A stretch of DNA of 64,000 nt from Capitulum mitella. Its lineage: Eukaryota; Arthropoda; Thecostraca; Pollicipedomorpha; Pollicipedidae. Where the stretch lies: NCBI GenBank assembly GCA_030062745.1, contig CP099847.1:604304-668303 (forward strand), written 5' to 3'. The notes under the pieces are model-generated. The model was not told the DNA's origin. It saw only the letters and a program-made list of their open reading frames with translations, and ran no database searches. This document shows, piece after piece, positions 17,401 through 58,100 of the stretch. How positions within the stretch are numbered: position 1 is the stretch's first letter; each line of letters begins with the position of its first letter. The translations under genes were made by a program, and so were the position numbers.

Positions 17401-20003
17401 CTATTTTCGACATACGTCGTCTTTTTTCGGAAATTGACGGAATTTCTTATAAAATTTTGAGTGTGAGACGATGCAGACACCCAATGACCGTCGCTGAGTC
17501 AATGATCAATGACCTCCAACCATTGACATGAAATCAGGTCACCTATAACTGTTATAAACCAAAATTCGCCGCCATCAGAATCGGCGATAAATGACTTAAA
17601 ATGGATAAAAGAGGCAGAATTATCTCTCGCAGTCGTGAATGGTACCAAAAAGCTCAAAGAGTAAAAACAAGACAAATAAACAGGCTCTTGCGAATAAAGC
17701 TTCGCCATTTGTCTAGGCTGATAAATACTGAATTGCTTCAAAAATTAAACACGAGAAGTCATAAAAAAAAACACTAGCATCAATCAACACCACTTGGCAA
17801 GGTTAATGTTGCCAAAATACGGAAACGCTCAGATTAGTTCCCGTTAATTCCATCTTGTGTTCGGCACCAGCGCCCAAAGTAGCGCCAACATCGCTGTGTC
17901 TTTAACTCAACGTTTCCGTGTACATATTACCTCCTCGCTAGGCGGGGTGGGGGTTGTTTTAGGGCCCCTCCGTGGTTTCCTTGAATGACTTTTTAGTGGC
18001 GGAAAATACAGCGCTGATTTTTGCTGTAGCTGAGCTTCGTGCATTTCTACACCTTGAGCAAAATTTTCAGAATTCCTCATGCAACAGGGGACAGTGACCT
18101 TTTTGTCAAGGCGACGTCAGTCGCGTTTTTAAACAAATCGAACAACACATTTTAATCGTTGTAAATTGGGTACTGTAATGTCGTGTTATATGTTTCTTTT
18201 CAGCCCCTGAGATCCAGGCCGTTTCTGCATTCCATGTTTTCGGCCATGAGGAAAGATGTATAGGGCTAACTGGCATACCATAAACCACAAATAAAAACGA
18301 GACCAGTTTCGGGCTCTGCTTGTTACAGATCTCGAACAGTATGTTTATTTTAATCGTGCGACTAACCGTTTGCGAGTTAGAGGGGGCGGTCACCGCCGGC
18401 CCCCAGTCGGGGGTACGTGACGTCACTGCCAGTCGGGTGCGGGTTAATATTTTAACGGTCTGGACATTGACAGCAAAGTTTACTGTACTGACAGAATATT
18501 TCTCTCACTTGATGAACACGATGATGAACATGCGATCCGCTGAGTCGCATTCAGCGTGAACATTAGAAATCTCCCACGCTGAGGTGCGCTGGCTGGCCGA
18601 GGGCAGATGCAGCGGGAACATCCACAAAGAACTTTCAGCCCGGCGCAAGCAGAAACAATTAGGGCCGTTCCGTCCCATTTGCTTTATCTATAAATGAGAC
18701 GCGGGACGTTCCCAGGACTCGATAAATGCTCGCGGTGCCCTTGCAGCAGCAGATCCGGCGGCCGGTGGCGCGACCGCAGCCCCAGCCCCGATACGGCCCG
18801 GCGTCCCTCAGCGGCCGACACATCTCGCCATCAGGTGTCCGGCGGCGGCCCTCGGCGCCGATAACGACCATCGACCGCCGCGGCTGACGCGGCCGACGTC
18901 AGCCGGCTGACGCTGACGGACGTCAGCCGGCGCGGACGGCGGCGGTCGTGGTTTGCGGGCGCCATCCATCGCGGGAAGCCCGACTGGCCGGAAATGTCTT
19001 GCTTCCTGCCCCCTCCATCTCTCCCTCCCCTCCCTCTCTTTCTCTCTCCTTTCTCTTTTCTCTCTTTCTTCCTCTCTCTCTCTCCCTTTCCTGTTTCCTT
19101 TCCGCTCTCTTTTCTCCCGCCCCCCCCCTCTCTCTCTCTCTTTCTCATGGAATGGTGTCAAGCGCCTCAGATGCAGATAGTTCGGCGTCACAACTGCCCA
19201 CTCCCTATCGCGCCATAGCTTGCATAAAGCTCTCTGGAAAACCGAGCGATCTTGTCAGTAATGTTTTGCGGGGATGAGAGCCAGAAACTTCAATTTGGCA
19301 AAGTAACCAGAGTTCACAACTCGTTCGTCAGTATAAAGTATCTTTGAGACACTACCCGTCGACACAGGTTGTTAACATTCAACAAAAGTTTAACTATCTT
19401 TGTGCGACGGGAGGAAACTATTTATCTGGCATGGGGAAATATTTTTGTTAGCGCTAATTAAATGAGTATGGCGTCTTTAATCTTCAGTTTATACATGCGC
19501 TGAAAAACAGAAAAACCTGAACAGCCAATGTAATTCAATTACACTCAGTATGTCACTCGAACACAACTCAATGTTTCATTGGTGCATTGAACAGCGCGAT
19601 GGTATTCGTTGGGATGGGATGCATGGGATTTCATTTCCCGCGGTTTGGGGATTAATATTTAACGTTTGACTCGAGCAGACTTGGGTCGATTCCACCATAG
19701 TAAATCATGAAAGGTCTGGCGCAGATTGGTTCTGTACGGGCGCTGCAGACGAAGGAACATCTTATGCATCCACTTTACTAATTCAGCCTCGAGCCTCCCT
19801 GGCCGCAGCGTACCGCCAGCCGCACCAGCGTGTCACCACTTACCACCAGCGTGCCACCACTTACCAACAGCGTGACAGCACTCGCCACCAGCGTGACACC
19901 ACTCACTATGAGCGTGACGTCACTCACCAGCAGCAGCCTGAGCCGTCCACACGAGGACAGCGGCCAGGAGCGCGGCCGCCGTGTCCGCCGAAGCCGTTCG
20001 CAT
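5202..20003 (-). CDS. Immunoglobulin-domain cell-adhesion protein (lachesin/klingon-like), 5' part
   Basis: Three exons are read on the minus strand: 20003-19928 (signal peptide), 6013-5903 and 5402-5202 (together one Ig domain). Each ends in phase 1 and the next begins in phase 1, with GTGAGT, GTGGGC and GTGAGT donors and TTTGCAG and ATTGCAG acceptors. The domain has the B-strand Cys (VLPCVIKHKG), the C-strand Trp (IVIWKRE) and the F-strand Cys (DQSSYTCSL), with the DPRYSLQ-GYNLRI core typical of arthropod lachesin/klingon/amalgam-type proteins. Such proteins are cell-surface or GPI-linked adhesion molecules of the nervous system. That the distant signal-peptide exon belongs to this gene is inference from strand, order and phase. 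The gene is incomplete: further Ig domains and the C-terminus would lie left of the window. Confidence 0.6.
5903..6013 (-). CDS. Ig-domain exon, A and B strands
   Basis: The exon is 111 bp, phase 1 to phase 1. It encodes VGQADGKPPQPSFVTQPG and then SFRAKQGETVVLPCVIKHK. This is the A/B-strand half of an Ig domain, with the first conserved Cys in VLPC. The acceptor is CCTTTGCAG and the donor is AAAG/GTGGGCC. The Ala/Gly-Gln-Ala start looks like the residues just after a signal peptide, which agrees with the exon at 20003-19928. Confidence 0.85.
10469..10534. repeat. Mixed (CA)n/(TA)n microsatellite
   Basis: A run of TATATA, then about eight CA repeats, then a long TA-rich stretch. Simple-sequence slippage DNA. 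Confidence 0.9.
15995..16204. repeat. 20-bp minisatellite, about 10.5 copies
   Basis: Units such as GTCCGCGGTCACTGGGTCCA repeat at exact 20-bp spacing, and GTCTGAGGCCGCTGGGTCCA alternates in part of the array, giving a 40-bp higher-order pattern. The first unit begins GTCTGCGGTAATAGG, which contains a possible plus-strand donor (GCG/GTAATA). No exon next to it could be confirmed. Confidence 0.85.
17041..17545 (-). repeat. Dispersed repeat, ~500 bp, inverted relative to 39300-39782
   Basis: Read on the minus strand, this follows 39300-39782: a start at GACCTGA-TTCA-TGTCAATGG, a middle with TCTGAGATAG, TAATCCCTGAAAG and TTTGTTCTCTCGCAGT, and an end at GGCGGTCAACC-CCAGTCGGGG. The copies are diverged. 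No coding sequence is visible. The end motif is shared with the family around 18300-18450 and 38570-38745. Confidence 0.65.
17935..18460 (+). repeat. Dispersed repeat family, copy 3
   Basis: Contains the ATTTTCAGAATTCCTCATG and GAACAACACATTTT motifs shared with 3340-3640, and the GCGAGTTAGAGGGGGCGGTC end shared with 2110, 38620 and 39750. It finishes with CAGTCGGGTGCGGGTTAATATT, which resembles the unoccupied form of the TTAA site interrupted at 39779-40997. Confidence 0.55.
19001..19145. repeat. Polypyrimidine (CT-rich) tract, ~145 bp
   Basis: Nearly uninterrupted C/T on the plus strand with many CTCTCT and TTTCC runs, so homopurine on the other strand. The Ser/Leu/Pro-rich frames across it are artefacts. 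Confidence 0.85.
19816..19927 (-). repeat. 21-bp tandem array of 5' splice sites downstream of the signal-peptide exon
   Basis: On the minus strand five 21-bp units follow the exon end directly: GTGAGTGACGTCACGCTCAT, GTGAGTGGTGTCACGCTGGT, GCGAGTGCTGTCACGCTGTT, GTAAGTGGTGGCACGCTGGT and GTAAGTGGTGACACGCTGGT (each plus one base). Four of the five start with a full donor consensus. The array therefore begins at the exon-intron junction and repeats it. Confidence 0.85.
19928..20003 (-). CDS. Signal-peptide first exon, probably of the Ig gene
   Basis: ATG at 20003 opens MRTASADTAAALLAAVLVW-TAQAAA, a short N-region, a hydrophobic core and an Ala-rich cleavage region. The exon then ends in phase 1 at a strong donor, CTGCTG/GTGAGTG. 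The base at -3 of the ATG is A. Joining to the phase-1 acceptor of the exon at 6013 gives AQAAA-VGQADGKPP, a plausible signal-peptidase site. The alternative is that it belongs to another, unseen minus-strand gene inside the 13.9-kb gap. Confidence 0.55.
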
Positions 20004-20330
20004 CTTCCCCTGTCGGCTGCAGTCACGCCCGCCCCGGCTGCGGTCACGCCTGTCCCGGCCGCAGACGCCAGCACGGCCGGCCGCCGGTCATGGCGCGGTC
20101 ACGGTCACCGGTCACGGCGCGAAGCGGCGGCGCGTCAGCCCGAGGCCGCTCGCTCGCCGAGTCTGCCGTCGGCGCCGACGGCGGCCGTCGCCGGCGACGC
20201 ACGCACCGGCGGCGCGGCTGCGGCACGGCGGCGGGCTTGGCTGACGCGGGCCGGGCCAGGAGACGAAATGAAGGGTTCAGAGCGGGACTGCCCGTCACGT
20301 CCGACGCTGGTGGCCAAAAGTTCACACGCA
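20004..20330 (-). promoter_or_regulatory. GC-rich, CpG-dense stretch upstream of the Ig-gene first exon
   Basis: Very GC- and CpG-rich DNA lies immediately 5' (minus strand) of the ATG at 20003. No TATA box is evident. Its position suggests 5' UTR and a CpG-type promoter. The overlapping open frames of 60-168 codons show no domain and are ascribed to base composition. Confidence 0.3.
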
Positions 20331-22489
20331 AGTTAACCGCACTTCACAGTCCTAACCGTTCTGAACTTTGAGCAAACTTTTCCTATAATCAAATGCAAAC
20401 GGTCAGCCAGGAACGCACATCTTCAGCGCACTCACTGGACGTAACTGGTGACGGCGGAACGTTTTCAGAGTTGCAGAGCCAAAAGTCATTAGTGGCTCCT
20501 TTCCACGCAACACGCTAGTAGTGCTTATGTTAAATTTACAAATTTCACGGATGGGGCAGCTTGCCGCAGCTCCGCTTCTGGAGTCCGTCAATGTAACAGG
20601 TGCACTCGACTATATTAGGTAATGACTGTGGTTGTAAGAGAAGTATTTCAGAATCTGCACCAGCGTTCCGCAGGTATCAGTGAAAAGCAAGCAAATGCAA
20701 CATAAAAACGTTCAAAATACCTGCATAGATATTTTGAAAAGGATGTTATTGGAGGTATTAACGTACGATGCCAAAATAGGAACTGTTTCGTGATGGCTGA
20801 CTAGTGGTTGTAGACTAGTCATTTCATTGTGCAACCGGTGTATTCCAGACAAAGGAAGACAGGAAATATTTTACGTTTTTTCATACCAGTTGTTCCAACG
20901 AGCTTCCCAACGAACGCTCTGCGCAACAGACAAATGACGCAGAAACTCAAGTTCAGTTTGCACGAGCAGAAAATTGCGATGCGCTCCAATGAGTGTTGAC
21001 AGCTGGTGGAGCTTATCGAAATCACAAGAAACGTCGCTGTAAACTAGGCTTGAATATGATAGTCACGCCTGCTGTTTTTTGTGTTGTTTTTTATTGTCAA
21101 GTGCCGGGAAACCAAAGGTCAGCCCATCAAATATGCCAGAGAAAATCGAATCATTGTGATTTTCACGACAGTTGAATCCAGCTGAGTGGAACTGAAGATT
21201 ACATAAAAAAATATTTATCAAATGACCGAATAGCTGCAATTTTTGTTGCAATGCTTGCCATGATAGTTATTTTCTTCTTGTATTCCAAACCGTTTCATTG
21301 TCTTCATAACTGCTTCGTTACATGAATGCTATGGAAAGGTTTATGGCTTTGGCCTCAGCTTTGGCCAAGGTTTTAGGCGAAACCTTGTGTAGAAAAATCA
21401 ATGTATTCAATAGTAATGATCCTTTGACTTTCTTGTATTTCGTTTGTACCATTTCTCCCCAATACCATCGAGTTTTCACGTAATTATGTCTGCTGACAAC
21501 AGATAGCTGAGTTGACAACAGCAATTCGCATGCATGGTGTTCGCGAGTTGTCCACTGCTTTCACTTTTACAGTATCTATCAACATTTACTTCTATGCAGA
21601 TGCGACTAACGTTCGCAAGCGATATTCAGCATTTCCAGCACGACAGTGGTCCTGTATAATCAGCAAGCCGTGTTTTTATTTCACAAACTCGAGATCTGTC
21701 TGCCGTCAAGTCAGTTCGAAACACTCTGCCAGTAATTTCAGAAGAAACAGCAGCGAGGCTCTTCCTTAAGACACAGATAGACGCACATAGTAGTCAGAGT
21801 CTGCAGACAGGCAGTCTGTGCAGGCAGCCCAGTTTGAATCCTATAACCAGCAACGCTCAACATTATTCTGGTTTGAACTGTTATGCCAACTGTCTCTCGG
21901 CCCGGTTTGATGCGAATGTAAGCTAGCAATGGACCGTATAACTCGGATGTTGGCGCATTGAACAGGCAATGGAGCTCGACCTAATGCTTTGTAACGCATC
22001 GTTAGTGCTGAAGGCTACTTGATCTCCGAGCCACGCGAAGGTCTCTTAATAATCGACGGAACTGCGATCGACCCAATGGCCGGGAGACTGCGGTACATAA
22101 ATCGGTCTTCGAGTTTCCACAGTTCTCGCGTTGAGATCAATGAAAATTAAACCGCATAGCATAACAAATGTCCAATTGCAAACCTTGCAGTCCGGCAGCA
22201 AAAGCCACAGTTATTCTTTCACGTGGAAGTTGCCCAACTACTGCTAATCAGCAGACCACTCGCACAAGCCACACCCTTGCATTGTGTTTTTGCTGTAAGA
22301 TATCGGCATGTCGCGATATGCGTCATTATGCCACGAGATGCCAACATAGGATCTGATACCTGATCTCACATTAGGTCATCATAGGCCAAATATATCTTTT
22401 TCCACTTTTTGAATGTACACTTAAAGTACGTAACATTACATTTTAAAGGACATTGGAAGGTTGTGAGGCTTTTTAAGATCGCTTAATAC

Positions 22490-22650
22490 AGGGTTATTGA
22501 TTGGCAGGGGCCGAGAACTCCTCTACAACTGGAGGGTTGTTTGAGGGCCAATGATAGGGGAAGGGTGTTGGAGGGCAAAGAAGCATTTTGGGTCGAGTCT
22601 TTACAGTCAAGATCCATAGGTTCCATGCAAAATTTTAAAAAAAGCTGGAG
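22490..22650 (+). repeat. Dispersed repeat related to 63610-63830
   Basis: Shares the order 'aactcctc ... gggagg ... aagcatttcgg ... cataggttc-atgtaaaatttaaaaaa-g' with 63690-63780. It is probably an old non-autonomous DNA transposon. Confidence 0.45.
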
Positions 22651-22683
22651 CAACTGCCCTATCGACCCATTCCTATCGACTAC

Positions 22684-22733
<50 letters not shown>
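22684..22733. repeat. (TA)n microsatellite
   Basis: About 22 uninterrupted TA units. Confidence 0.95.
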
Positions 22734-22736
<3 letters not shown>

Positions 22737-23867
22737 TGCCATATACAGGGCAACCACAAGACCCACAAGACAGCAGTCATTAGAAGCGTGCGAATCTGTC
22801 TACTAACCCGAGAGATTCGCGAGGGGGGATGGGGAATGTTGCCCTTAGTCAGTGACGTTACGCTACATACCACAGCCAATGACAGGATATGAAACAAACG
22901 ACAAAAATGGTCTTCAAAGGGCTGACGTCGCGGTCGGACAATTCATGACTGAAAATAGCAGCCGCACCACAGGCTTGTTCCCTATCTTGTCCAGACTCTG
23001 AGTTACCGTCTGGTCTGTGTCTAACTGAGTCATCGTGCGCCTTTTTCAAGATACTTGGTTTCTCAGAGTGAACATTAAAATCGTGTCAATGGCCAGCATT
23101 TTACGCGTGCGCCCAGAATCATTCCCTCCATGGCGTCAGATTGCATTCCTTAGGACACACCGCAATCAATGGAAAGGCCAATCCAGTATTTTATTATCTT
23201 TGACGCGGCTGTTCGGGGGCATCAGCCGCTCTGAATCCCTGCCACGTTTTTACCGCCTACATCATCCCCGGCGGCCGCCTCGGCTCACGTGCCGGCCGAC
23301 CCATCACCATCGGTCAGACCAGACAGATCCACGCCGTCCGCTCGCGTCCGTCCTGATAGCATTGCTTCGTCCCGGCCCCGGCCTGAGTGGAAAACGGGTG
23401 CGAAAGAAAAAACGACGCCGCGCTTCTCCCAGGTAGGGGTGTGCCGCTCGTCGATCTGAGCGGGCACGTACCACTGCAGGTGCGGTGGCTTGGCAGGGGG
23501 GGGGGGGTACACCGACACTGTTTGTTACCGCCAGGACACCTAGCGTGGTCACTGATAGGCTCTAGTATGCAGATGCCAGCACTCAGTATTTGTTCTGCCC
23601 GGTGCCGTGTATGTTCCGGTCTTAGGCAGTGGATGTTGTTAGCTTTCGTTAACGACGAAAGGGGACCTGCCAGCACAGAACGTTATCCATCCATACAACC
23701 TTTACCTTTTGGTAGCGTTAGTTCCGTACAAACAAAATCTGAATGGCTAAAACGTCAGATGGCAGAAGACCTAAAATAGTTGGGCGCTTACACAATACAC
23801 AGGATATTTAAAGCAGACCCTTTATTCCTATTTCCCATTGGTTTAGTGACATATCATATCATATCAC

Positions 23868-23960: not shown

Positions 23961-23984
23961 ACGGTATATTATGTATATGGGTTA

Positions 23985-27425: not shown

Positions 27426-30400
27426 ATGGCTCAAGATTGGGCGAGGACGGTTCTGGTGGTGACGGCTGCTGTGCTTGTTACGGAGGCGACCAATTGTAAG
27501 TTTAAAACAAAACGGCCATCCCTGTTTTGCGGAGGTGGTCCTGATGAGCCAGCTCAGAACGTGATATTGGAATAGAATGGAAATCATTCGCAAACCATGG
27601 TTGTGCGGAATTCTAAATATGTTTTTGTGTTATATCTCGGTGCAGTTTCCATACATTAGATCCGATTTCCTCCACATCAGGTACCGCCTCCCATAACCCG
27701 ACTTTTGCGTCGCCGTTTTCATTTCGCATGCATCTCTCTAAGCATGATGTATGGCAAAAAATATAGGTCATTGCTGTCCTTGCGAACAGACCCGGCGGCA
27801 TGGTGGAGATTTTACACAATTAATGGGTTAGTTCCATCAGGATCTTAATCGTTCACCTCATTTAACGACGTCAACACCGTACGTCCCACGTTCAAGGCAG
27901 TGTTGATCATGATTATCCCAGTTTTCCAAGGACTTTCAGATATGCCCATCATAAATGGACCTTTCCATTCCAGTTTTTACAAAGCCAGCTGAAATGAAAC
28001 GAATCTGGAACATCCCGAATGTTGCTCCATGGAGATCTGGCATTGCCATGCTACTTAACACTTCCACTTAACTTATAGATGTCGAAATGAACGAAACATA
28101 ATCGCTACAGTGCACTGGTCATCTTGCTGTATGTGAGATGGGTAGCCTTAGACGAGCGTACAGCTAGAGTCTGAGACAAGTCCGATGTTTCAGCAGCCCA
28201 GATTTTCTTAACCGTATGCCATACATGTTGACTTCTTCCGAGTGGCAGGAGCTGAGACACTTTTGCAGCTGTCGCCGGAACAGCCTTATGCCCGGGACCA
28301 AGTGCCTGCCTCCGCGCCTCGCTGTTCCGCGCAGTTTACGACGCGCTCGCGGCGGTGGAGCCCCCATGACCGTGCCGCCGTTCCAGTGGCGGACGTGCCG
28401 TGCGGGCAGCAGCAGATTCTGGCGGCCCGCTTCAAGATTGTCGGCGGAAAGGCGGCTTATCACGGCGAGCACCCGTGGACCGTGTCGCTGCAACAGAACG
28501 GCAAACACTTCTGCGGCGGCACCATCATCAGCAGCCAGTACATCATCACGGCCAGCCACTGTCTGAGGAGGTGAGTTAGTGCAGCGCGTTAATTCGTACT
28601 GTTTCCGGCCTAGAGTTAGCATGAGCTGGGGGAAATGTCAGCTATGACTCTTCCTCGTAACTGCCCTGCCCCGAGCCAGTGAAGTCGCAGCCAAGCTGAT
28701 GCGACTGCTGCGAAACTAACTGATTTATGGACAATGTACGGGGACCTTGCCACTGCGATTCCTCGTTTTCGGCGCTCATCTTTCGTGGATTCCATCAGCC
28801 CGCGAGGCGTCGGTCCTCGGTAACGTAACACGTTTCAGAGACCGTTCACTTGCCTTCGCTCTGACCGGGATGGTTTCGGCAGGCGATCCAGCGGTTCCGT
28901 CTCCGTGGTCGCCGGCGAACACGACCTTACTCGGGCCGAGAGTTCGCAGCGGAAGTACAGGGTGGCTCAGATCATCCGGCACAAGGGCTACCGCTACCCG
29001 AGCTTCCGGGACGACATCGCCCTGCTCAGACTGTCCGATAAGGTCGGTTACACCGCTGAGGCCCTCCGACAAGATAGCTAACCCCGTTCAGATTCCTCGA
29101 TAAGGTCGGTAACACCGCTCAGACTCTCCGATAAAGTCGGTAACACCGTTGAGACTCTCCGATAAGGTCGGTAATACCGCTCAGACTATCAGATAAGGTC
29201 AGTAACACCGCTCGAACTCTCAGATGAGGTCGGTAACACCGCTCGGACTATCAGATAAGGTCGGTAACACCGTTCGAACTCTCAGATAAGGTGGTAATCG
29301 CGCTTAGACTGGATCAAGACTAGACAAGGCCAGATCTCTGACGAGGTCCGTGAATTGAGGCCATTTTCATATTTTAGAAGGTTAGTACCCTTACTTCTGC
29401 CCCAGGCAAAGGACAAGGTCGGCTGTTGCAGAGTACAGCGCTACAGACTCCCGTGGAAGGCATCGACGGCAAACGCTGTTATTCCAATCGCTGCACGGTG
29501 CGAACTGCAACTGAGTTGTCTCTTCCTCTGATGTGACTGCATTTCCACTTCGTGGAAAAGGAGTGATCCTTCACTGTCATGCCGCTAGCCAGCATGTGTA
29601 TTACTGAAGTTATTTAAGACCAACACCGTAACCCGGTTTATATCGGCTTCGGGTTGTTGGCCAGTACTGTCAGACAGTGCGTATTTGTCTTAGTTAATGT
29701 GTCTACGTTTAAGATTCTTTGGAATCTTTGTCGTCAGCTAACGTTTGCCTGTTTCAGCTGATGTGATGATGTTTCAGAACGTCTGGCAGTGCCGTCACCC
29801 GGTGCATGCTTGTTTCAGCTGACGTGTTGATGTTGCAGTTCGTCTGGGACCATTGCCATGAGGCGGTTCGTGTTTGTTTCAGCTGATGTGCTGATACTTT
29901 AGCTTATCTGGTATTTGCGAGTACTGTCAGCAGGTGTGTGCTTGTTTCAGCTAACGTGTTGTTACAGGTCGTCTGGGACCATTACCGCCAGCCGGTGTGG
30001 ATTTGTTTCAGCTGATGTATTGGCGTTACAGATCGCATCCGTAACCATTACCGCCAGCCGGTGTGTATTTGTTTCAGCCGGCGTGTTGTTGTTACAGATC
30101 GCCTGGGACCAGTACCGTCAGCCGGTGTGTCTTCCGAGCTCGTCCCCCGAGCACGGCGACCCGGCCACCGTGGCAGGCTGGGGATGGCTCGGCGAGTATA
30201 GCAAAGGTCAGGTCAACCGGCCACCCACGCGTCAAGTTATCGTAAATGAGCCGTTAGCGGTTAGTTTGGGCCGAAGTGGTTTGCCGGATCAAACGATTTT
30301 CTGAAGTGGATAAACATTGGATGCTCTATGGTATGAGCGCTTCTGGTGTACAGTTTATAGTGATGGCTGTTAGTCATTTGTGTGCTAAAAGAAGCACGCG

Positions 30401-31855
30401 GTGTTAAGAATGGTCCAAATATTTTCTAAATATCGGACTGCAATGCCACATGCATTGTATGTATGTATGTATGTATGTATGTATGCATGCACCACCGCTC
30501 AGAAGAGATCGCTTGCCTTTCCACCCCAGATGTCGACTAATTTCCGTTCATTGATCTTGACTGAATGCATTTTAATTTCTGGATCCTTGTAGACGAATCT
30601 TTACTTGGACAGATTCAGAACTGAAAGAGACTCCTTTCTTGGAACACTTGGTAGAACAGGCACTTTTTTAGACTTCCTGATAAACGAATAAGTTTAAGAG
30701 CTGAAATGTGCTTATCGAATAGCCACCTATGTTTTAAATGATGGCTACATTTTACCGCAGCTTTTGTTCGTGACCCCTGCTCCACGAATTCGAAACAATG
30801 CCCGCCGGCCCGAGAAATGTGGTACGGCCGCGGCTGGGCTTTGGCTGACAGCTTGAACTGATGTCACGTGCCGCAACCGTTGACGCCGCGTGCACGTGCC
30901 GACACAGGCGGTCAGCCGGCGGACGTGCTGCAGCGGGCCGACGTGCCGATCGTGACCCGCGGCACGTGCTCGAGCTGGTTCCGCCAGGCCGGCCGGGGGA
31001 TATTTATCAGGCGGGGGCAGATGTGTGCCGGATACAAGAGCGGCGGAGTGGACGGTTGTCAGGTGAGAAGTGTGAGCTGTCGGGTGAAAATGAGAGATGC
31101 CAGGTTGGACACATGAGCTATCGGAAGAGAAATGTGAGATTTCAAATGAGAACAGGGAGTGTCATGCTGAAAATTGGGTTCAGTCACGTGAAAACCTCGG
31201 GTTGTCACGTGAAAACTGTGGACTTTTGGGTGAAAAACGTTGGCTGTCGGATAGGAATAAAAGCCGGCTTTCGAGAACGAATAGACATCCATTAAAAACT
31301 GTCGACTGTCTTATGAACAATCGTGAAAAGAACTATGAACAGTCGTGTGGATAGCGCTTCTGTGGTATGAAACGGAATGGTTTCCTCTTCGTTAATCGCA
31401 TTTTGGAGTCAGCGGGAATGCCGGTAAACATACCAAGTGTAAGATGGCGTAAAATATCATCGGCGCCATCGCCATTTGAAACCGGTCGGTGGGTTGACCG
31501 TGAAACTCAGAAAACACGGGAGAAGAGCCGGACTATATCCTGACGTCTGAGGTCAAGCCTAAGGCCAGCTGGCCCTTCCTGGCGTCCATGGGTCAGGGCG
31601 GTAACGGTGGACCGTTGGTGGTCAGAAGCGGGGGGAAATTCACCCTGGTGTGAATGGTCCGTGACTTATGCGTTTGCCTGGCGACAGGGTGACAGCGGTG
31701 GACCGCTGGTGGTCAGGAACGGAGGCAAGTACACCCTGGTCGGCCTGGTGTCGGCCGGCATTGGCTGCGCCCGCCCAAACCTGCCGGGCATCTACACCGA
31801 CATCCACGAGTACATGGACTGGATCCTTCGGAACGCCCCCGGGACGGGCAGCTAG
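27426..31855 (+). CDS. Secreted trypsin-like serine protease A
   Basis: Six exons: 27426-27495, 28387-28570, 28883-29042, 30098-30206, 30908-31062 and 31688-31855. Phases fit throughout and give 281 residues. Residues 1-21 are a signal peptide ([20 protein letters not shown]). A short propeptide with Cys29 precedes the activation site RFK40/IVGG44. The catalytic triad is His81 (TASHC), Asp129 (RDDIALLRL) and Ser229 (GDSGGP). The S1-pocket Asp is in VDGCQ, predicting cleavage after Arg or Lys. Eight cysteines fit four standard disulfides, including propeptide Cys to PVC. There is no clip or other accessory domain. The physiological substrate is unknown; digestion, cuticle, clotting or immune roles are all possible. 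Three intron ends carry splice-site arrays. Confidence 0.92.
29018..29312 (+). repeat. 31-bp tandem array seeded by the exon 3 splice donor of protease A
   Basis: Units beginning GATAAGGTCGGTAACACCG recur at 29037, 29068 (degenerate), 29099, 29130, 29161, 29192, 29223, 29254 and 29285, each exactly 31 bp apart. The first unit is the true exon end plus intron start (TCCGATAAG/GTCGGTTACACC). The following units repeat coding bases and donor together, so most of about nine copies keep a potential 5' splice site. The period is not a multiple of three. Confidence 0.92.
29750..30097 (+). repeat. 61-68-bp tandem array seeded by the exon 4 splice acceptor of protease A
   Basis: GTTTCAG recurs at 29751, 29812, 29876, 29944, 30005 and 30071. 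Each unit also carries a downstream ...TTACAG-like acceptor and a decayed copy of the exon 4 start (encoding roughly WDxYRQPVC). The real acceptor is GTTGTTACAG at 30088-30097. Intermediate copies keep stretches such as GTCTGGGACCATTACCGCCA. Confidence 0.88.
30455..30490. repeat. (TATG)n microsatellite
   Basis: About eight ATGT units within intron 4 of protease A. Confidence 0.9.
31057..31270 (+). repeat. ~21-bp degenerate array seeded by the exon 5 splice donor of protease A
   Basis: Starting at the exon end TGTCAG/GTGAGAAGTGTGAGC, similar units follow at about 31078 (TGTCGGGTGAAAATGAGAGA), 31098, 31119, 31140, 31160, 31180, 31203, 31224 and 31245. The shared pattern is TGTCNGGTGAAAA. Units are more diverged than in the 31-bp array, but the 21-bp spacing is clear. 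Confidence 0.75.
31597..31653 (+). pseudogene. Dead partial duplicate of the catalytic-serine exon of protease A
   Basis: This reads [18 protein letters not shown] then a stop, against [18 protein letters not shown] in the functional exon 91 bp downstream. An acceptor-like TCAG precedes it. Asp194 is Gly, catalytic Ser195 is Asn, and the frame ends after 18 codons. Inclusion in the mRNA would give an inactive, truncated protein. It is a tandem partial copy that has decayed. Confidence 0.8.
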
Positions 31856-44537: not shown

Positions 44538-46680
44538 ATGGCGAGACTTGTGCTGCTGCTGGCTGCTGTTGGCGTGCTCCTCGAAGCCGCAGGAGCGATG
44601 AACTGTGAGTAGCATGAAATACACAATAGATAACTTGAATTAGCTTAACACTATTAGTCGCCCGTTGTTCCATTTGAACATCAGCATCCAAAGAGTATAC
44701 CTGTCGTGTGATTGGTTGACATAAAGTGCAGAGATGTACTGTTCAAAATTAGTTCTACTACTACGAAATTAACAATAACTTGTTATCCAAGGATTGACGC
44801 ATTTCCGAGTACAGTACGGCAGATAAGACAAGGGATTGGGGCGCGCGCAGGCATAAGAGTTTGCCGTGCAAATGTCGAGCTTAGAACTCAAGTTATCCAG
44901 CGTCGGATCTCTGATCCCCGTCATACAATGGTGACATTCTTGTACGCGTTAGCGCAAATGGACAAAGGCAAAAATTAAAATGCAGGGGCCTTGGCAAGTT
45001 TGAGCTGCAAAAGCGCACTTCTTCCTATGGTTTTGTTTGCAAGCATGGACTTTAAACCTACAACAGGTGAGTTTCTGGTCGTCGATAAAGAGGTAAATGA
45101 ACTTGCGTGACGGTGTGGGCGGCTCACACGAAAAGCACCCAAAATGCGTGAGGCGTTGCGCATCCGGCCGGTGGCACCGACAGCCCTGCCACGTTTCCAG
45201 TGGCGAACGTGCCGTGCGGCAAACGCCAGCTGGAGGGCCGGCAGGCGCGAGTCAAGGGTGGCCAGGACGCCTACCACGGCCAGTTCCCGTGGTCAGTGTC
45301 GGTGCGGCACCGCGGCTCCCACTTCTGCATGGGCGCCATCATCAGCGACGAGTACGTGCTGACGGCGGCGCACTGTTTCGGCGGCCGGCCGCGGAGCCAG
45401 TTCTCGGTGGCCGTCGGCAGCCACAACCTGACCGCGGCCGAGGCGACGCGCCTCCACCTGCCCATCGCCGAGCGCATCCTCATGGACGGCTACGTCGACG
45501 GCAAGTTTGACAACGACCTCGCCCTGCTGCGGCTCTCTGGCAAGGTGGGAAGTGTTTGGTGTTGCCAATGACGTGCGTCGGGGCTGATCGAGATAACGCA
45601 CAGCTTCGCTAAGCTGCTGTTTTTTTTTTGCATTCTCTCATTACGAAATAAAGCAAATGCTGCATAAGGAGTCTAAAGCATTCAAGCATGTGATCGTTTA
45701 TTCCGTTCACGTTTCCTTTTGTTCCATAACATTTTGCAAAGAGTGTCTTTTGACCCTGTAGAAGAACCTCTCTGAGAAGCTGAAGCTTAGGCCCAGGTTA
45801 TGCGTTAGTCAAAACCATGCGGAGCTGAACACGCCCTCCTGTTTTCAGCTGACGTGGAGCGACTACGTGCAGCCGGTCTGCCTTCCGTCGTCCGGAATCG
45901 AGAAGTACACAGGAATGAAGGGCATCATGGCCGGATGGGGCTACCTGGACGAGTGGAGGTCCAGTGAGTGTGGTGCATTGTGAGGCGTGGAAGCAGAGCT
46001 GGGCTCATCACAGACATTGCCAAATAGCGAAAAAACTGACTGTTCGGCTTTTTTTTTTGCTAACCGCGATGACCTACATTCCTCGGTCACCTCCATTTGC
46101 GCGCGCAGACAAATGTTGATTATCGCAAATTTCCTAAAAAGGTGATTTTTCCAGTGGGCACTCGTCCAGATATTCTGCAGTGGACCGAGGTCCCTGTCCT
46201 TTCGAAGAAGACGTGCCAGGAATGGTACACCGAGGCCAAGAAAAACATCAAAATCTCCAAGGGAAAAATATGCGCTGGCTACAAAGAAGGAGGCAAAGAC
46301 AGCTGCCAGGTACGAACAAAAACTAAATGATCTTTAAATGCCAACCGTCCGAGTCGTTCAGGCTACATTTCTTGAAAAATAACCAGACGCGGTAACCTTA
46401 CACACTTGCGGCGATAAAGACGACGCACCGCAGCGTCACAGCATCGGCATCAGTTCGGTCGGGTGTTCGCCGCCGCCGGCGTACTGGACGTCCCTCCTCC
46501 CTCCCGCAGGCGGACAGCGGCGGCCCGCTGATCGTCGAGACGGCCAGCGAGTACCAGGTGGTGGGCGTGGTCTCCGCCGGCATCGGCTGCGGCCGGCCCA
46601 ACCTGCCCGGCATCTACACCGACGTCACCGAGTACATCAAGTGGATCGTGGGCACCATTAGCGCCAGGACCACGTTCTGA
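44538..46680 (+). CDS. Secreted trypsin-like serine protease B, with Ala at oxyanion-hole position 193
   Basis: Five exons: 44538-44604, 45201-45544, 45849-45963, 46155-46309 and 46510-46680, all phase-compatible, giving 283 residues. A signal peptide (MARLVLLLAAVGVLLEAAGA) is followed by a propeptide with Cys28 and an activation site AR39/VKGG. The triad is His80 (TAAHC), Asp128 (DNDLALLRL) and Ser230. Asp224 in KDSCQ predicts trypsin specificity. Two features are odd. The new N-terminus would be Val-Lys-Gly-Gly instead of Ile-Val-Gly-Gly. The motif before Ser is ADSGGP, so the usually invariant Gly193 of the oxyanion hole is Ala. The exon lengths around the C-terminal half match protease A (155 bp for the penultimate exon in both), so the genes are paralogues. 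B lacks A's intron after the His exon. Confidence 0.92.
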
Positions 46681-50224: not shown

Positions 50225-53200
50225 CTGAGGATGAACGACACTTAACAGGAGTGCCAGGAAAACGGCGTAGTAGCGCGCTGGTAACGACGTAGTAACGCGA
50301 CAGAGCGTTAGGTAAACGATTCACGTGACCGTCGTAATCAAGACTACGAGTAGGTAGCTTTCTATACTGTAATGAAAGTGCTAAATCATGACTTCTCTCT
50401 CCTGGCCACGGAAGCTCTTATGATTCAGGTTTCGGAGTATAAAAAGTGCGGTTAACATTATCAAGATGGCTAGCGACCCCGAGGGGGTCCGCACATTTCC
50501 CCCAATGTTTTTGCATTAGGTCTACGGCATTGACTGGAAAGAAACGGTTTAAAATTCCTTGTGGACCCCTCCCCCAAATATTTTTCGGAAATCTCCAGCC
50601 ATGGTACCACGGAAGAAGTTTATTAAATGTGTGCTGTTTGTCACTGTCTTTCTCATAAAGCATTATTTCATCTTCTCTTTTTCATCACATCCTCCCGGGT
50701 ACCATTTGACGAGGGTTCTGCGTTCGGTCAATGCGAGGTCTGTGATGTTCTCTTAAACAAACAAAAAGACAATAAGCAATAAAAGAGCATGGTTCCTTGC
50801 TGGACACCGCGTCATGCTGTCCCAGAAAAACCACAGCGTCACCTGCGTCACCTGCGTCACCGCAGGACGAACTGCTCACCGTGAGCGCCGACCTCGGACG
50901 CCGCTTCACCGGCTCCTCGTCCGTCACAGCCGAGACGTCCGAGACGGAGCGGGGTCGCGAGTCGTCAGCGTCAGAGCTGATTCGTCGAGACTGGCCGTCG
51001 CTGTCGTCGACTGGTGACGGCTGGTTGGTGGAGGCTGGGCTCCACGGCTTGTTGTCGTCCCTCCCGTGCGTAATGGGTGGTGAGCTGGAAGACATCGTCG
51101 GGGTAACGGCTCAACTAGCTCCAGGTGAGGCGAACTTGAAGAATAAATGGAAACGTGGGAAATGCGTTTTGCTGCATACGAAATTCTTTCTTCGTATGCT
51201 GTGCAACATATTTAGTTCTCATGCTGCTTGAGGTGGTCAGTGTTCCGAGCCAGGTCTTTTATACATTAGTCGTCATTGACTAAGACCAATCATTCGCCAG
51301 ATGGTCTCCGAATTTTCTTATTGTCACGAGAAAACTCGCGAATAAAGGCATAAAAACTAAAGACACCGCCAAGATTCGCGACCCATACTGCCTAAGCCAT
51401 GGTGTGCCGGCAGGACTGACGCCGATCAGGACAGCTGAGCACCAACCGTCGGCCGCCGGCGCCGCTGCCGCAGCTGACGGCCGAGTCTGCCGAGCCGTCA
51501 CTGTCGGCCGAACTCGGCCACGGCCTGGCCGTCTCTTGCTTCCCGCTCTCCCGCCAGCTGGTCGTTATCTCGGCCTGCAGCCGGCGCTGTAGCTCCTCCA
51601 ACGCCTGCGCCGGACAGCTGTCGGGCCAGCTGGCCGTTATCTCGGCCTGGAGACGCTTCTGAGGCTCCGGCGACGCCCGCTCCGGCAGGTCCTTCAGCCC
51701 CTGGCCCGTCACCTGGTCCTGCAGGCGATTTTGTGACTCCTCCAGCTTCTGCTCCGGACGACGCTCCTCCTCCGTCTTCAAAATGTCTGACAAAACAGCG
51801 AGCATGCATGTTACAGAGCTGTATAGAACTCGTAACCGAAGAACGAGGATGGCGGTTTTTGGCGGAACGGTAGACCTGCAGGCAACTGATTGATTCCGCC
51901 AAATATGTCGAAGAATACCATCACAGGAATAACAGTCAACCATGTGAGGCATGTCACGTGACGTGAGACATCACATCAGGCTAAATCAGGCTAAAACAGG
52001 AAGCCTACGGTGGGCACGTGCCTCAGGGCCGTAGTCAAATGGCATCTCGGCACGCGGACATTACAAGGTTTCGTACTGGAAGTTAACGAATCTGAGTTCA
52101 AAGGCCCACTCACCATTTTCGTTGCTTATCAGTTCTTTGCAGCTCAATTTGATCCCTCGCATTAGCTCCAATGAAGAAACATCTACCTGGTGGGAAGACA
52201 TGGGGTAATCAAAGTAAGCCTCGGGAATATTTAAATACTAATGGACTGCGAACAATGAATCTGCGTTTCAAGAGACTTCTGGTGGTTTTAATGTGCCCAT
52301 CTTATGTTTTGCTGCTACATGTTCTTCGTAATTGCATAAGGCAACAGGGACGTGAAAATCAACGTAAAACAAAGAACACATCGCATCGTAATAAAACAAA
52401 CAGCACGGTGGGATTCGAAAACAGCAAGTATGTAAGACTTTAAAAGACCGCAGCGCTAAGACAACCGTAGGACAGCGGAAATCCTCCAGCTCAACAGACA
52501 ACAGCAGCGGTGTGTCAGAAGTTGGGTACGCTCGGTCAGAGTCACAGCGATCAGACGGCGATCAGATCAGATCAGATCAGACAGGGAGACGGCGGTGAAC
52601 TTTCGGAAGACGGCAGCGACCAGTTGCAGAACGGACGCCATTTTGCAGGAGGCGGACACCAGAGCTACAACGGACAATCAGATGAATACAGCCAACATTC
52701 AGAGGAAAATACCCAGTGCTCAGAAGATTTCAATCAGAGCTCCAAACGACGGACATTGAGATGGTGATGAGATTTACAGACGACGGCGGTGGAAGCCCGT
52801 AAGCTGTAACAAGCTTTGGCAGACATTAGCTGCATCATAACAGAACTGGTCGACCCATCGAACGAGCGTATAGACCAAAGGACAGCAATAATCAGTTGAC
52901 GGTCGGATGATAGGAGTGGGTGTGGCACTGACCTCCTCCAGGTCGGAGGAGACGTCCGGTTCCTGCAAGCCCAGGCCATCGGCGGCACCGTCCGCCCCTG
53001 ACTGGGAGAGACTGCTGAGACGACGCTGCGTCTTCTTCAGTTTATCCTGCTCCTGTCGGCCCATCACAGACGCAGCCATACGGTCAAATGTGCAATAACA
53101 CGTCTCATTTTATAATGCCACAAGGGACCGACACCTAAAGACCGAGGTTTTGTCGGACAGTGATTTAGTCACGACGTTGGCGCACCACCCACCAGACACA

Positions 53201-56200
53201 TTTCTCTGGCGATCTCCCTGTGCTGTTGCTCCATGGCCTCTGCCTCCGGCCGGATCGATTCTGTCAGACTGCTCTGCTGGTTCCGGATACCCTTCAGCTC
53301 GGCCCTGGCCGCGGAGAGGAAACTGTTATCGGAGCCATCCGCGCTCTCGCTCGACAAGTGCCACGTGCGGACTAACATTTCAAGGGGGAGGCGCGATTAT
53401 GGCAACAAGTCTCCAGCTCCCGTCAGCCAACCGCCGAGTTAAAACCAGGAAAATCGTGACGAGGGCGAACCTCCACGAGCGGCATGTTGGATCCACCCCA
53501 GGTTTTAGCCATTAATGTCACCTCAGTTTCGGGATACGACATTACAAAGTTTCCGCGAAATGGTGACTGTCTTACACGTGGGCACGAGCCCCGGTCTCAG
53601 GTACGGTCAGGCAATCTAGCCGTACTGGCTGAGCCCCGAAAACGACCGGTCCAAATTACCGCAGGCGAGCCCAGGGACGTGTAAACAGAAACTAGATGAC
53701 CGTCGGCTGCGTAATACGACGTATTACTGAAGCATGAACATGTATGTTCATCGTTCTGGCGGCGTCCGCCTGGTGTACAATGCCCAGGAAATGAGGTAAT
53801 AATATGGATAAGCCGTACTCGGGTGTCTGCAATCAACGATGCTAGTTGATCGATCTGAAGGAGTAGCTCCTCCCTCTCGGCCTCCCAAGCCACGTCGTCC
53901 TCCATGTCATGGAACTCCTGGTCTTCGTGATTCTGCGGTAAAAAATTATGCGGTCACTGGCATCAACGTAACATACAATCATTCCAACAAATGTCTCCCC
54001 TGCCAATCAAGCAAGAGGAATGATTGACAGGTCGCTGAGCAGGATCGTGGTTGTTGACTTAGAATTCATAAAATGTCGGTGGTCGAAAGCATGACGTTCT
54101 CCGAGAGACGGTCGTCAGCTGGCAGCCCACCTTCCGCTCCTGCTCGACCAGCTCGTGCTGGTACTTGAGCTTCTCCAGCAGCCTGGTCTCGTCGTCGGTG
54201 GAGCCGCGGAACTGTTCGCTGAGCTGCTCCAGACGCTCCAGCTCCGCCTCGGCCACCACTATCCGAGCCGCCAGCTGAAACCGCCGCCTCCGGTCAGGTC
54301 AGGTCAGGTCAGGTGAGGTCACGTTAGGTCGGGGCAGGTCAGGGCGCACAGTAAACAGCCGTCGACTGTATAGGCAGACGGGCAGAGATCGCAGCGCAGG
54401 CACACGAGCGTGGCATACGTGTCGACACGGATCAGACGGACCGCACGAGGGGACGCCTGGTCGGAAAATGGCATCATCTAGAAAAAGGACGTCGTGAACT
54501 GATAACGCGCAGCCGTCCTCTGCTGTTAGTTCTCCAATAAAATCGACGTCTATCTGGCATCCGAGGCCCGGTGACCCGAGTCGTGACGTCACCGTGACGG
54601 CGTGACGGCGCCGCTGACCTGGTCCGTCTCGGCCTGTCTCCGGCGGCGGGTCTCCTCCCAGGCGTCGGTCCGGGCGGCGACCGTCTGGCGCTGGCTGACC
54701 AGCTCAGCCTGCAGCTGTTGCAGCCGGCCCTCGTGAGCGGCCACCTCCACCTCCAGCAGTGCGTGGTCCAGTTCCAGCTGAGCACGGGCAGAACGGTCAC
54801 GAGGAGGCAGGTAAAGGCACAGTGTGCGGCAGTTGGGCACATGGTCACAGACGGGAAGGCGATGTCCCCAACGCGATTGACGGAAGATGGCCAGATGGGG
54901 TCAGAAAAAGGGGAACAATGCCTAAGCCACATGGGATTATAAGGCTGGCCAGGAAAGATCAGAGGCGTCTCGGAAGCTGGGAACTGCGGAGGCCTTGTGT
55001 GGAATCGTGGGCCATTTCCCAAGGAATCATCGTATTCTCAGGACGAATCCAGCCTTCTCTACAGAATATGGAAAAGGCGCGCTTTAGTGCGTCGCCGAAG
55101 CAGAAGCCAAATAAGTCCTCTTGTTCCGGCTCTGGTTGGTAGGCTTTAGATGCCATATAAAGATTTGAAACTATCCGGCACGTGAGTTGTTTCACAGCCG
55201 TGCTTGCCTGTTTGGTGAGTACAGCCTGCTGGTGCTTCAGAGTCAGCTCTTGTTGACGCAGCTCCGATAGCCTCCTGCAGGCTATCCGTCTCTGGTCCTT
55301 CAGCTGTCCGGAGTCCGCGGTCAGGACACGGGACACAGACGTAAGTTTCCCTTCATCTGTGCTCTTTCAGCGTTTAGATTTGGTAGTTTTAACAGCTTTC
55401 AATCATGAGCACGGGGAAAGTTACTGGTAATGGCCGAACGTGACTGACGTAAATAAGACACATTGAAGCTCTGCACTGGACTTGCGAACCTCGGAAAGTT
55501 AAACTTTACATTCAGTGCATCCATGACAATGCGCATTACGTAATATCACCTCTTGTCGTTTTTCGGCGATCTTGTGCAAATCATGGCCGACGACATCGCT
55601 GCAAACTCACCTCTCTGACTTCTTCGGAGAGCTCGCTCTCGGCGTGGCCGAGCCGGCCGAGCCTGTCCGGACCTGGCTCGTCTCGCTGGCTGACTCGAGG
55701 AGAGCCGGATGACTCGCGCCCGCCAGCCGAGGCGTCGGGTCGCGAGAACTGGGCTGACTTGTCTTCAGCGAGTGACTTGGCAGTCAGGCTCCCTGGGTCG
55801 GCTTCCGCTGACTGGTGCGGCGTCTTTTCCACAGCGGCGTCCCCAGGGCCATCTCCCACAGCCTACGGTCATCGGAGCCGACGTCAGCCTGCGAGGACGC
55901 ATGGACGACGAGAGTGGGTCGCAACTACAACCTAGTGCTCGTCAGTTTCGGCTCCAAGTTCGCGCTGTGCTCATATTTCGAGTTAACGGCGGCTTGCTCC
56001 AAAAAAGACGGACGTCAAAAGCAACAGAACATTTTGCCTAAAATTGCCCCTTAGTGAAAAGGACACCAAATCTACATTGCGGGAACACGTTCACTGTCTC
56101 ATGCTGCATATAGGGGAACCCTTTTTACATTCACATGAAAAAAGAAATCAGTTTTGCAAACAGACTCCGACAAATCCAGCTGAGATTTCCCACTGACCGC

Positions 56201-58100
56201 CGACAGCGCGGCCTCCTTCTCCGCCCTGAGCTGCGGCTGCTGGCCGGGTCCCTCCACCTCGGCCCGCCCGCTCTGCCGCTCGGCGGCCGGCCGGGGTGGA
56301 CGCAGGGGCCGCGGCGGCGGCGGCACCATGTACACGGCGCCGGCCGGCGCGCTCAGCTCGCCCTCGTCGGCCCGCTGCAGCGTGGTGCGGATGCGCGTGC
56401 GCGGGCTGCGCGGGCACACCAGACGGCAGACGTTCTCGTAAGGGCTGCGGAGGGCGGCGGGAGGCTCCTCGGGGCCGGGGAGCCGGCGCGTCTCGGGCGG
56501 CGTCACAGGGCCAGGCGAGCGCCGCCGGTCGCGCGGCAGCGAGCCGTTCGTCTTGATCCTGGAACGGCAGCGCGGCGGCTCAGACGCGCGAGTCGGGCTG
56601 GCGCTGGCGGCCACGGACGGCCAGTACTGGGTACCGAACACAGACAGAGCGATGCGCTGTTACACAGCAAGAGTTAGATCAAGTGAGGCTAAATATGCTT
56701 GACCTGTCCGACTTGCCTTGCATACAAGGGGTGTATATGTAAATATTTTTGTTTCTTACAAGAGTGAATGAGAAAACGCATTCATTTCGAATAAAAGCCG
56801 GTAACGATGATGTACATACGTAACATGTCTGGACATTGGTGATGGAGATGAGCTATATTAGACAGGAAGTGGTACACGATGCACCCGTCGCGCTCGGGGC
56901 CGGTGAGACAGATATACATTTTGCGAACAGGAGCTGGTGAGGCAAATTTACCTACTGTGAACGGGGGCCGGTGAGGAAGATTTACCCACTGTAAAGGGGG
57001 ACCGGTGAGGAAGATTTACCCGCTGTAAAGGGGGTCGGTGAGGAAGATTTACCCACTGTAAAGGGGGCCGGTGAGGAAGATTTACCCGCTGTAAAGGGGG
57101 TCGGTGAGGAAGATTTACCCGTTGTGAACGGGAGCCGGCGAGTCGGGGGGACGCGACGCCGGCGGCTGCGGCGAGGACATCTGACTGTCGTACTCGGCGC
57201 ACAGGCTGAGGATCTCGTCCAGCCGCGACTGCTCCAGCTGCTGCAGAGCCTCCGTCTGGCCCCGCTTCTCAGCCGCCTCCTGTGAACGCACAACACCAGC
57301 CATGGAGACGGCACAGCTCGGTTTGGAAGACGTTGGACGGCAGCGCGCAACAGACTGTATAACGGACAATGAACATCAGACAACAGTACCGGGCCCATTA
57401 CAAGATCTGGGCGAGTGCCGCAATATGGCACCAGAAGAGACGGGACAACCTGAGGCGGACGCGGCCCCCACGAGGTGGTGTCCGGTAAGGCTACCCCCCC
57501 CCCCCGTTAGATCGGACACTGGTTTTACGAAGACCCGACGCCCTGGTACCTGGCGATGGCGTTGCTCTTGTTCCTTTTCGGTGATCCGGTGGCCATTTTT
57601 GGAGGCAGGAGTCTGGCCTGTGTTGTTTACTGGCGACTGCCGCTGCCCTCTATCGTCGGCTAGCAGCATGTGCTGCCATCTTGGAGCGTCAGAAGGTTGG
57701 TGCTGTTTTCCACCGCTAGTCAGCAGTTGGTGCTGCCCTCTGTCACCGGTGAGGTGATGGTGCTGCCCTTTATCGCCGGAAAGCTGCTGGTGCTGCATTG
57801 TTTCGCGAGGCAGCGGCCACCTCAGCCATCCGCCCTCAGCCATCTGCCGCTGCTGCTCCCCGTCTCCAGCCTGCTGCTGGCGCTGTCCTCTGGCAGTGGT
57901 CTGCTGCTGGTGCTGCCCTCTGTCGGTGACCTGCTGCGGGGACCGCCAGCCCAGCGGCGGGACGTTGTCGTACGGCGATGGCCGGACTGCGGCCGCCGTC
58001 AGCCGTGGAGGCTTTGGCGGTGGCAGCGGCACGGGGGGCGGCCGTTCCGAGCCGTTGATGGAGTTCATCGGCACCTGGTAATGTCCAGAGCCGTCCAAAA
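49197..58100 (-). CDS. Pleckstrin homology-like domain family B protein (LL5/PHLDB-like), 5' incomplete
   Basis: At least thirteen exons on the minus strand. Best-defined: 58100-57931, 57279-57119, 56558-56194, 55862-55611, 55303-55208, 54777-54619, 54274-54131, 53932-53819, ~53330-53193, 53052-52933, 51786-51447, 51084-50880, 50224-50146, 49940-49747 and 49382-49197 (stop). Order: a Pro-rich region with SPYDNV/SPYENV motifs, a coiled-coil region, a Ser-rich linker, then RPLTRYLPI and a C-terminal PH domain. This order and the PH motifs are those of vertebrate PHLDB1/2 (LL5). Those proteins bind phosphoinositides at the cell cortex and anchor microtubule ends through CLASPs, at adhesions and at postsynaptic membranes. 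Three joins have phases that do not match as drawn (56194/55862, 53819/53330, 52933/51786), so small exons may be missing. No FHA domain was found. Confidence 0.85.
50071..50106. other. Perfect 15-bp hairpin in a PHLDB intron
   Basis: CTTTTACGTCTACGT, a TTGAAG loop, then the exact inverse ACGTAGACGTAAAAG. It lies about 40 bp downstream of the 50146 donor on the transcribed strand and would form a strong RNA stem. Confidence 0.75.
50836..50861 (-). repeat. 9-bp repeat of a splice-donor-like motif
   Basis: On the minus strand GGTGACGCA is repeated so that GCAG/GTGACG occurs twice, just downstream of the chosen donor ACG/GTGAGC at 50880. Using either copy would change the phase, so the upstream donor is preferred. 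Confidence 0.5.
52553..52581. repeat. (AGATC)n pentanucleotide repeat
   Basis: About five AGATC units in a PHLDB intron. The minus strand contains repeated CTGAT. Confidence 0.85.
52933..55303 (-). CDS. PHLDB-like gene: coiled-coil exons
   Basis: Exons 55303-55208, 54777-54619, 54274-54131, 53932-53819 and 53052-52933 are whole-codon, phase 0 at both ends (32, 53, 48, 38 and 40 codons). One more, near 53330-53193, has an uncertain acceptor. They encode heptad-rich, charged segments such as LSELRQQELTLKHQQAVLTK, LELDHALLEVEVAAHEGRL and LEKLKYQHELVEQERK. These match the coiled coil upstream of the PH domain in PHLDB proteins. The exon at 55303 probably uses a GC-AG donor (CAG/GCAAGC), because no GT lies nearby in the right phase. 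Confidence 0.8.
54293..54317 (-). repeat. (CTGAC)n pentamer, tandem branch-point-like motif before a PHLDB exon
   Basis: On the minus strand CTGAC occurs four times at 5-bp spacing, with the A residues 20, 25, 30 and 35 nt upstream of the exon starting at 54274 (acceptor GGTTTCAG). CTGAC fits the animal branch-point consensus and the distances are in the usual range. A more degenerate continuation runs to about 54340. Confidence 0.65.
55611..58100 (-). CDS. PHLDB-like gene: N-terminal low-complexity exons
   Basis: Exons 58100-57931, 57279-57119 and 56558-56194 join in phases 0 and 2 without frame error; 55862-55611 is a phase-0 exon with a perfect GTGAGT donor. They encode LDGSGHYQVPMNSINGSE, a PPPVPLPPPKPPR segment (possible SH3 ligand), SPYDNVPP, SRLDEILSLCAEYDSQ (a conserved helical motif), SPYENV and PRTRIRTTLQ. 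The join from 56194 to 55862 is phase-inconsistent as drawn. The true translation start is not identified and could lie upstream of the EXOG-like gene. Confidence 0.7.
56903..57136 (-). repeat. 33-34-bp tandem array seeded by a PHLDB splice donor
   Basis: GTGAGGAAGATTTACCC recurs on the plus strand at 56937, 56971, 57005, 57038, 57071 and 57104, with a looser copy at 56903. On the minus strand each unit is GGGTAAATCTTCCTCACC followed by a CCCCCTTTACAG. So every unit contains a donor (GG/GTAAAT) and an acceptor-like end (pyrimidines then ACAG). The first unit overlaps the real exon end GTTCACAACGG/GTAAATC at 57119. Confidence 0.9.
57280..57639 (-). other. Intron of the PHLDB-like gene
   Basis: Contains a 10-base C run near 57487. 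The frame carried over from the repeat array remains open here but shows no conserved motif. Confidence 0.4.
57640..57933 (-). repeat. 27/30-bp array starting at a PHLDB splice donor, open in frame
   Basis: On the minus strand units such as CAGCAGGTCACCGACAGAGG-GCAGCAC repeat with lengths of 27 or 30 bp. The first follows the exon end CCGCAGCAG/GTCACC at 57931. Because unit lengths are multiples of three, a frame encoding Gln/His/Gly-rich repeats (like LTGDRGQHQ) stays open to about 57376. It is either an intronic array or a retained-intron extension of the exon. The phase-0 join to the next exon favours splicing at 57931. Confidence 0.7.

Follow-up and report, generated by a model that had tools for sequence, protein, structure and literature searches.

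Junction-spanning tandem arrays in arthropod genes resemble the mirages of lancelet genes

The window, the whole stretch of 64,000 nucleotides that was analysed, raises the question of whether tandem duplication is drawn to splice junctions. It had been predicted to hold arrays of the splice site itself at five 5′ splice sites and one 3′ splice site, with two smaller cases beside them. The same structures in several arthropod genes of a chromosome-scale assembly make the question testable and suggest a general route of intron growth and of spare splice sites. The host genome comprises 477 Mb in 16 contigs. It contains 150 matches to the cuticle domain Chitin_bind_4 (150 of 627 candidates scored), which we take to be an arthropod marker, and a lancelet as the source genome is ruled out by these matches. 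Four genes were modelled in the window: protease A (six exons) and protease B (five exons) on the forward strand, and a 16-exon PHLDB-like gene and a three-exon Ig-like gene on the reverse strand. The 54 modelled junctions (27 donors and 27 acceptors) derive from gene models, not from RNA; the donors of PHLDB-like exons P5, P8 and P12 and the acceptors of P9 and P13 are uncertain. No Rfam families or tRNA genes were found in the window.

Six of the modelled junctions lie within arrays reported by TRF (score at least 45, period at least 7; Table 1). Five are solid by TRF and gene models, as predicted, namely the donors of protease A exons 3 and 5, of Ig-like exon 1 and of PHLDB-like exon P2, and the acceptor of protease A exon 4; the sixth, the P1 donor at 57931, is doubtful. 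Junction-spanning arrays are real, and they are uncommon. The exonic share of all six arrays is 6 to 32 bp, with the rest extending into the intron. The units match at 75-89% (TRF), most copies being diverged, which argues against assembly error as the source of the arrays and weakens that explanation.

Table 1. Positions of the junction arrays and of the exons and genes to which they belong (a slash in a motif or between two positions marks the junction)
Feature	Position	Strand	Basis
Protease A exon 3, donor 29042/29043	28883..29042	+	open frame, splice sites
Exon 3 donor array, 31 bp x 8.9	29024..29297	+	TRF, aligned copies
Exon 4 acceptor array, 64-66-bp units	29746..30129	+	TRF rows 29746-29895, 29961-30129
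Protease A exon 4, acceptor at 30098	30098..30206	+	open frame, splice sites
Protease A exon 5, end ...GGVDGCQ/GTGAGA, donor 31062/31063	30908..31062	+	gene model
Exon 5 donor array, 21 bp, starts 6 bp inside exon 5	31057..31105	+	TRF score 54
Degenerate copy of exon 6 acceptor region	31594..31649	+	blastn
Protease B, neighbouring paralogue of protease A	44539..46680	+	Trypsin matches, gene model
Ig-like gene coding exon 1, donor GCTG/GTGAGT, 19928/19927	19928..20003	-	sequence
Ig-like exon 1 donor array, 21 bp x 5.3	19823..19934	-	TRF, aligned copies
PHLDB-like exon P2, donor AACGG/GTAAAT, 57119/57118	57119..57279	-	gene model
P2 donor array, 33-34 bp x 6	56936..57142	-	TRF, aligned copies
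Array at presumed P1 donor, 30 bp	57870..57937	-	TRF; related 30-bp units at 57728-57796
Presumed PHLDB-like exon P1, doubtful junction at 57931	57931-58074	-	

Protease A has matches to Trypsin (PF00089) in three frames of the gene, and a match to trypsin-family chains extends over about 236 residues of its joined exons. The first unit of the exon 3 array consists of the last 19 bp of the exon, the donor and the start of the intron, and GT is kept at the place of the donor in 8 of 9 aligned copies. The unit of the exon 4 array is formed by the acceptor and the start of the exon, the last unit including 32 bp of exon (30098-30129); the local similarity score is 24.4. By eye, the start of exon 4 resembles LTWSDYVQPVCL of protease B. 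The array at the exon 5 donor has a similarity score of 14.4, with more degenerate copies visible by eye up to about 31330. The start of exon 6 (31685-31740) has an upstream copy in intron 5 (80% over 56 bp, blastn). This degenerate acceptor copy is a seventh case in the window and was absent from the original prediction.

Exon 1 of the Ig-like gene encodes the signal-peptide-like MRTASADTAAALLAAVLVWTAQAAA. The donor is located in the first unit of its array together with 7 bp of exon, and GTGAGTG or GTAAGTG is retained in four of five aligned units. Further Ig-like exons at 5202-5402 and 5903-6013 (reverse strand) were recognised by eye; there is no Pfam match in this gene, and the Ig label is likewise by eye. 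Part of Ig-like exon 3 (5228-5265) recurs, by eye, in the intron some 170 bp further downstream (5058-5095), perhaps as a boundary duplication. The PHLDB-like gene shows a weak PH-domain match in exon P15 (20.2 bits, cut-off 25.1) and is otherwise named by eye. The first unit of its P2 array contains 24 bp of exon and the donor, and GGGTAAATC is kept in 5/6 aligned units. The P1 junction is doubtful because its presumed donor, CAG/GTCACC, is weak (score -1.26) and the 30-bp repeats leave the reading frame uninterrupted; this array may be a coding repeat rather than a junction array. A DNA/RNA non-specific endonuclease domain (PF01223, E=1.1e-42) is encoded by a single open frame (59403-60029, reverse strand) that precedes the first PHLDB-like exon of the model. 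The two smaller predicted cases exist near junctions, but neither spans one: a 9-bp repeat (50836-50861) is found in the intron 19-44 bp past the donor at 50880, and the acceptor at 54274 is preceded, at a distance of 18-69 bp, by a pentamer array (54292-54343). A strong array at 16011-16198 (20 bp x 9.4) is at no modelled junction; it adjoins a GC-rich stretch in which an unannotated first exon is possible.

Protease B is located 13 kb from protease A on the same strand, and the two proteins share 49% identity over 251 residues (blastp). No array is found at any of the eight modelled junctions of protease B. Its introns measure 596, 304, 191 and 200 bp, as compared to 891, 312, 1055, 701 and 625 bp in protease A, and it lacks intron 2 of protease A. 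The junction between exons 3 and 4 is common to both genes, with arrays there in protease A only. As protease B shares this intron without an array, the exon 3/4 intron of protease A was probably not created by its array.

The association had been described as far from chance on a count of about 23 junctions. With 54 modelled junctions that wording is overstated, although an excess is still seen: six junctions lie in arrays against a circular-shift mean of 1.65 (P=0.009), in a window selected for its unusual look. The same holds for strong arrays only (period at least 15, score at least 80), with 5/54 junctions against a mean of 1.15 (P=0.0098) in this selected window; neither P value is corrected for that selection. 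A similarity score of at least 14 is reached by 6 of 54 window junctions and 9 of 200 control positions, some of the controls lying inside the same arrays. Minisatellites with a period of at least 7 and a score of at least 50 cover 2.9% of the window, 3.4% of random stretches (80 kb) and 4.0% of trypsin-gene flanks; with such similar coverage, they are common in everything sampled.

Kinase loci were sampled elsewhere in the genome (40 of 138 match rows), picked without regard to arrays and before the DNA of the loci was seen, as short open frames with a partial domain and no in-frame stop. Of 80 possible junctions, 74 passed a score filter; the six dropped include the acceptor of locus L071, which is within an array. 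One of the 74 junctions is inside an array, and none of the 36 donors; junction bins are no higher than intron bins. A similarity score of at least 14 is found at two of the 74 junctions, the acceptors of L050 and L052, and at 7 of 212 control positions. Junction-spanning arrays or duplicates nevertheless recur in this genome. The L050 acceptor carries three units of 60 bp, each including 36 exonic bp, and L052, whose kinase exon is similar to that of L050, has a 27/27 copy at its acceptor. A perfect 66-bp doublet (66 bp x 2, 100%) is present at the presumed acceptor of L071. One of eight random stretches (L038) contains, by eye, an acceptor array with 55-bp units. Beside the kinase exon of L072 is an apparently young array of 66 bp x 5.9 with 97% matches (1404-1795 in the orientation of the kinase match).

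We had been given to expect that no described system behaves in this way; this is incorrect, as two sets of earlier reports show. In lancelets, minisatellite-like tandem duplications called mirages lie across the exon-intron boundary at the 5′ or 3′ end of the intron, in Adh3, troponin C and the globins BflGb6 and BflGb9 (PMC3087553, PMC3902484). Troponin C is given as a further mirage case, and PGBD5 has similar but imperfect repeats (PMC3902484). The Adh3 units are 10-72 bp long with AG/GT signals in many copies, and regular splicing is described despite the copied splice signals, together with length or somatic instability (PMC3087553, PMC3902484). The arrays described here are alike in that their units span modelled junctions (protease A exons 3, 4 and 5, Ig-like exon 1, P2, L050 and L052) and in that both ends are affected (donors of protease A exons 3 and 5, Ig-like exon 1 and P2; acceptors of protease A exons 4 and 6, L050 and L052). 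They differ in their arthropod host, although the taxon of discovery is no mechanistic criterion. Splicing and length instability are reported for the lancelet genes, whereas the present arrays are known from the sequence of one assembly. Judged by anatomy, the junction arrays fit the lancelet mirages and represent a new occurrence, in an arthropod, rather than a new kind of system. A literature search, with subscription papers mostly outside its reach, returned no report from an arthropod and none named mirages outside lancelets.

The second set concerns human genes of segmental duplications, in which minisatellites are described in exons or at exon-intron boundaries, with on average four units of 30 bp that differ between paralogues; 27 intron modifications remained after manual inspection, with splicing altered via new introns (PMC2812944). 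The unit length of about 30 bp, the location at exon-intron boundaries and the difference between paralogues are shared with the arrays found here. The human repeats, however, are exonic or activate cryptic sites to give new introns, with transcript evidence (PMC2812944), whereas in the window the copies in the intron are of a junction that already existed, as read from DNA alone. Tandem duplication of AGGT segments is also a classic model of intron gain, with ATP2A1, 24-bp AGGT exonic arrays in fission yeast and potato RdRp as cases (PMC4974935). The likeness is a local duplication that bears AGGT and provides spare splice signals; the difference is that protease B has the exon 3/4 intron, the only one so tested, without an array.

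Splice words were followed through the genome by counting tandem pairs at 19-49 bp spacing, with words of the same composition as controls. CAGGTRAGT gives 163 pairs for 6124 words; the controls give 15 for 6165 (the reversed word), 48 for 7602 and 82 for 9652, an excess per word of 10.9, 4.2 and 3.1 fold. The reversed word alone thus gave an 11-fold excess, which the two further controls lowered to 3-4 fold. AAGGTRAGT gives 27 pairs against 16 for its control (raw counts, not per word), a single array contributing 8 of the 27. Two acceptor words give 14 against 8 and 237 against 263 pairs (raw counts), and acceptor seeding as a genome-wide effect is weakened by these counts. Of the 163 CAGGTRAGT pairs, the 100 listed form 40 loci, of which the first 20 were fetched and 17 were judged (L082, L091 and L094 were left out). 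A coding donor was called when the frame ending at the first copy scored above 95% of the GTs in random stretches. This is the case at 11 of the 17 loci and at 3 of 20 single CAGGTRAGT words (Fisher P 0.0025). The single words were taken in listing order on contig C1, from 39, omitting an array cluster near 660234; their upstream reach was 330 bases, as compared to 400 bases in the null and at the pair loci. With eight looser MAGGTRAG words from random stretches added, 5 of 28 end a coding frame (P 0.0021). Tandem copies thus occur at coding donors at about 8-10 times the frequency seen for this word at other sites. Retention of one copy by selection introduces a detection bias of 1.6-3.3 fold; part of the CAGGTRAGT excess is this retention effect, but at 1.6-3.3 fold, not ten, it is too small for the tandem excess at coding donors. 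The proposal of a shared mechanism accordingly holds in part: junction arrays recur in the genome and CAGGTRAGT pairs are in excess, but AAGGTRAGT, the acceptor words and the kinase sample lend it little or no support.

We consider it probable that the arrays arose by ordinary tandem duplication of local segments with a junction in them, and that they are tolerated since the exon-proximal copy is still spliced. We infer that a segment of about 20-66 bp, duplicated locally by slippage or unequal exchange, happened to straddle an exon-intron boundary. Every copy would bear a donor or an acceptor, and the copy adjacent to the exon would still join correctly. The duplicates would thereby become intron, nearly neutral, and would then multiply and diverge. 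Neutral duplication is favoured by protease B, with no arrays and shorter introns, and by the regular splicing described for the lancelet genes despite their splice-signal copies. It is also favoured by the unit lengths in the 40 listed loci, whose medians fall 16, 13 and 11 times into 0, 2 and 1 modulo 3 and show no strong frame bias. Neutrality is not to be assumed, since human boundary repeats can alter splicing (PMC2812944). Both the CAGGTRAGT excess over all three controls and the tandem frequency of coding donors count against purely chance placement.

A stronger reading is that active CAG/GTRAGT 5′ splice sites genuinely seed minisatellites in this genome, either since duplication is provoked there or since spare donors are retained and possibly used as alternative or recursive sites; extrapolation would put tandem copies at 2-5% of coding donors of this type, about ten times the figure for the same word elsewhere. 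We put this forward tentatively and regard it as rather unlikely. The evidence that donors are favoured is mixed; donors may be hot spots, or spare donors may be kept by selection.

In the first form, donor junctions would be mutational hot spots, for example via transcription- or R-loop-linked breaks, that seed arrays preferentially. The CAGGTRAGT pair counts, the coding exons ending at tandem loci and the circular-shift result for the window point this way. They are met by the small AAGGTRAGT difference, with its many pairs from one array, by kinase donors outside arrays and kinase junction bins no higher than intron bins, by acceptor words that lack a clear excess and by a window that was picked for its look; a hot spot in this sense seems distinctly unlikely. 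In the second form, selection would retain spare donors that buffer the loss of the functional donor or tune splicing. In eight long donor arrays the GT columns diverge less than the rest (weighted 0.089 vs 0.144, true in 7/8), and CAG/GT is retained in many diverged copies, but these eight were chosen for holding intact donor pairs. The three window arrays show no clear conservation of the donor columns (circular-shift ranks 10/31, 12/21 and 5/33), and median units are not multiples of 3 in 24 of the 40 listed loci, so that splicing at inner donors would often change the frame. On this evidence, selection for spare donors is very unlikely. That the window holds nothing more than a chance cluster of common minisatellites agrees with their coverage of about 3-4% of sampled sequence, with the kinase sample (1/74) and with the pooled similarity scores of at least 14 (8 of 128 window and kinase junctions, 16 of 412 control positions), but is highly improbable given that CAGGTRAGT is in tandem excess and that this excess is linked to coding exons.

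Recursive splice sites are zero-length exons with the form CAG/GTRAGT. Array units such as TCTCTCCGTCTCACAG/GTAAGT in L082 look like a 3′ site immediately followed by a 5′ site. A pyrimidine-rich stretch precedes CAG/GTRAGT in the units of L082, L089 and L098, which resemble tandem recursive splice sites. Most units of this appearance would be accounted for by the copied exon end and donor of local duplication. The exon at L095 is, by eye, PDZ-like. An array with a 39-bp unit, divisible by 3, contains nine copies of AAGGTGAGT (eight pairs) at G000:C1:5575097-5575417 and may be a coding repeat.
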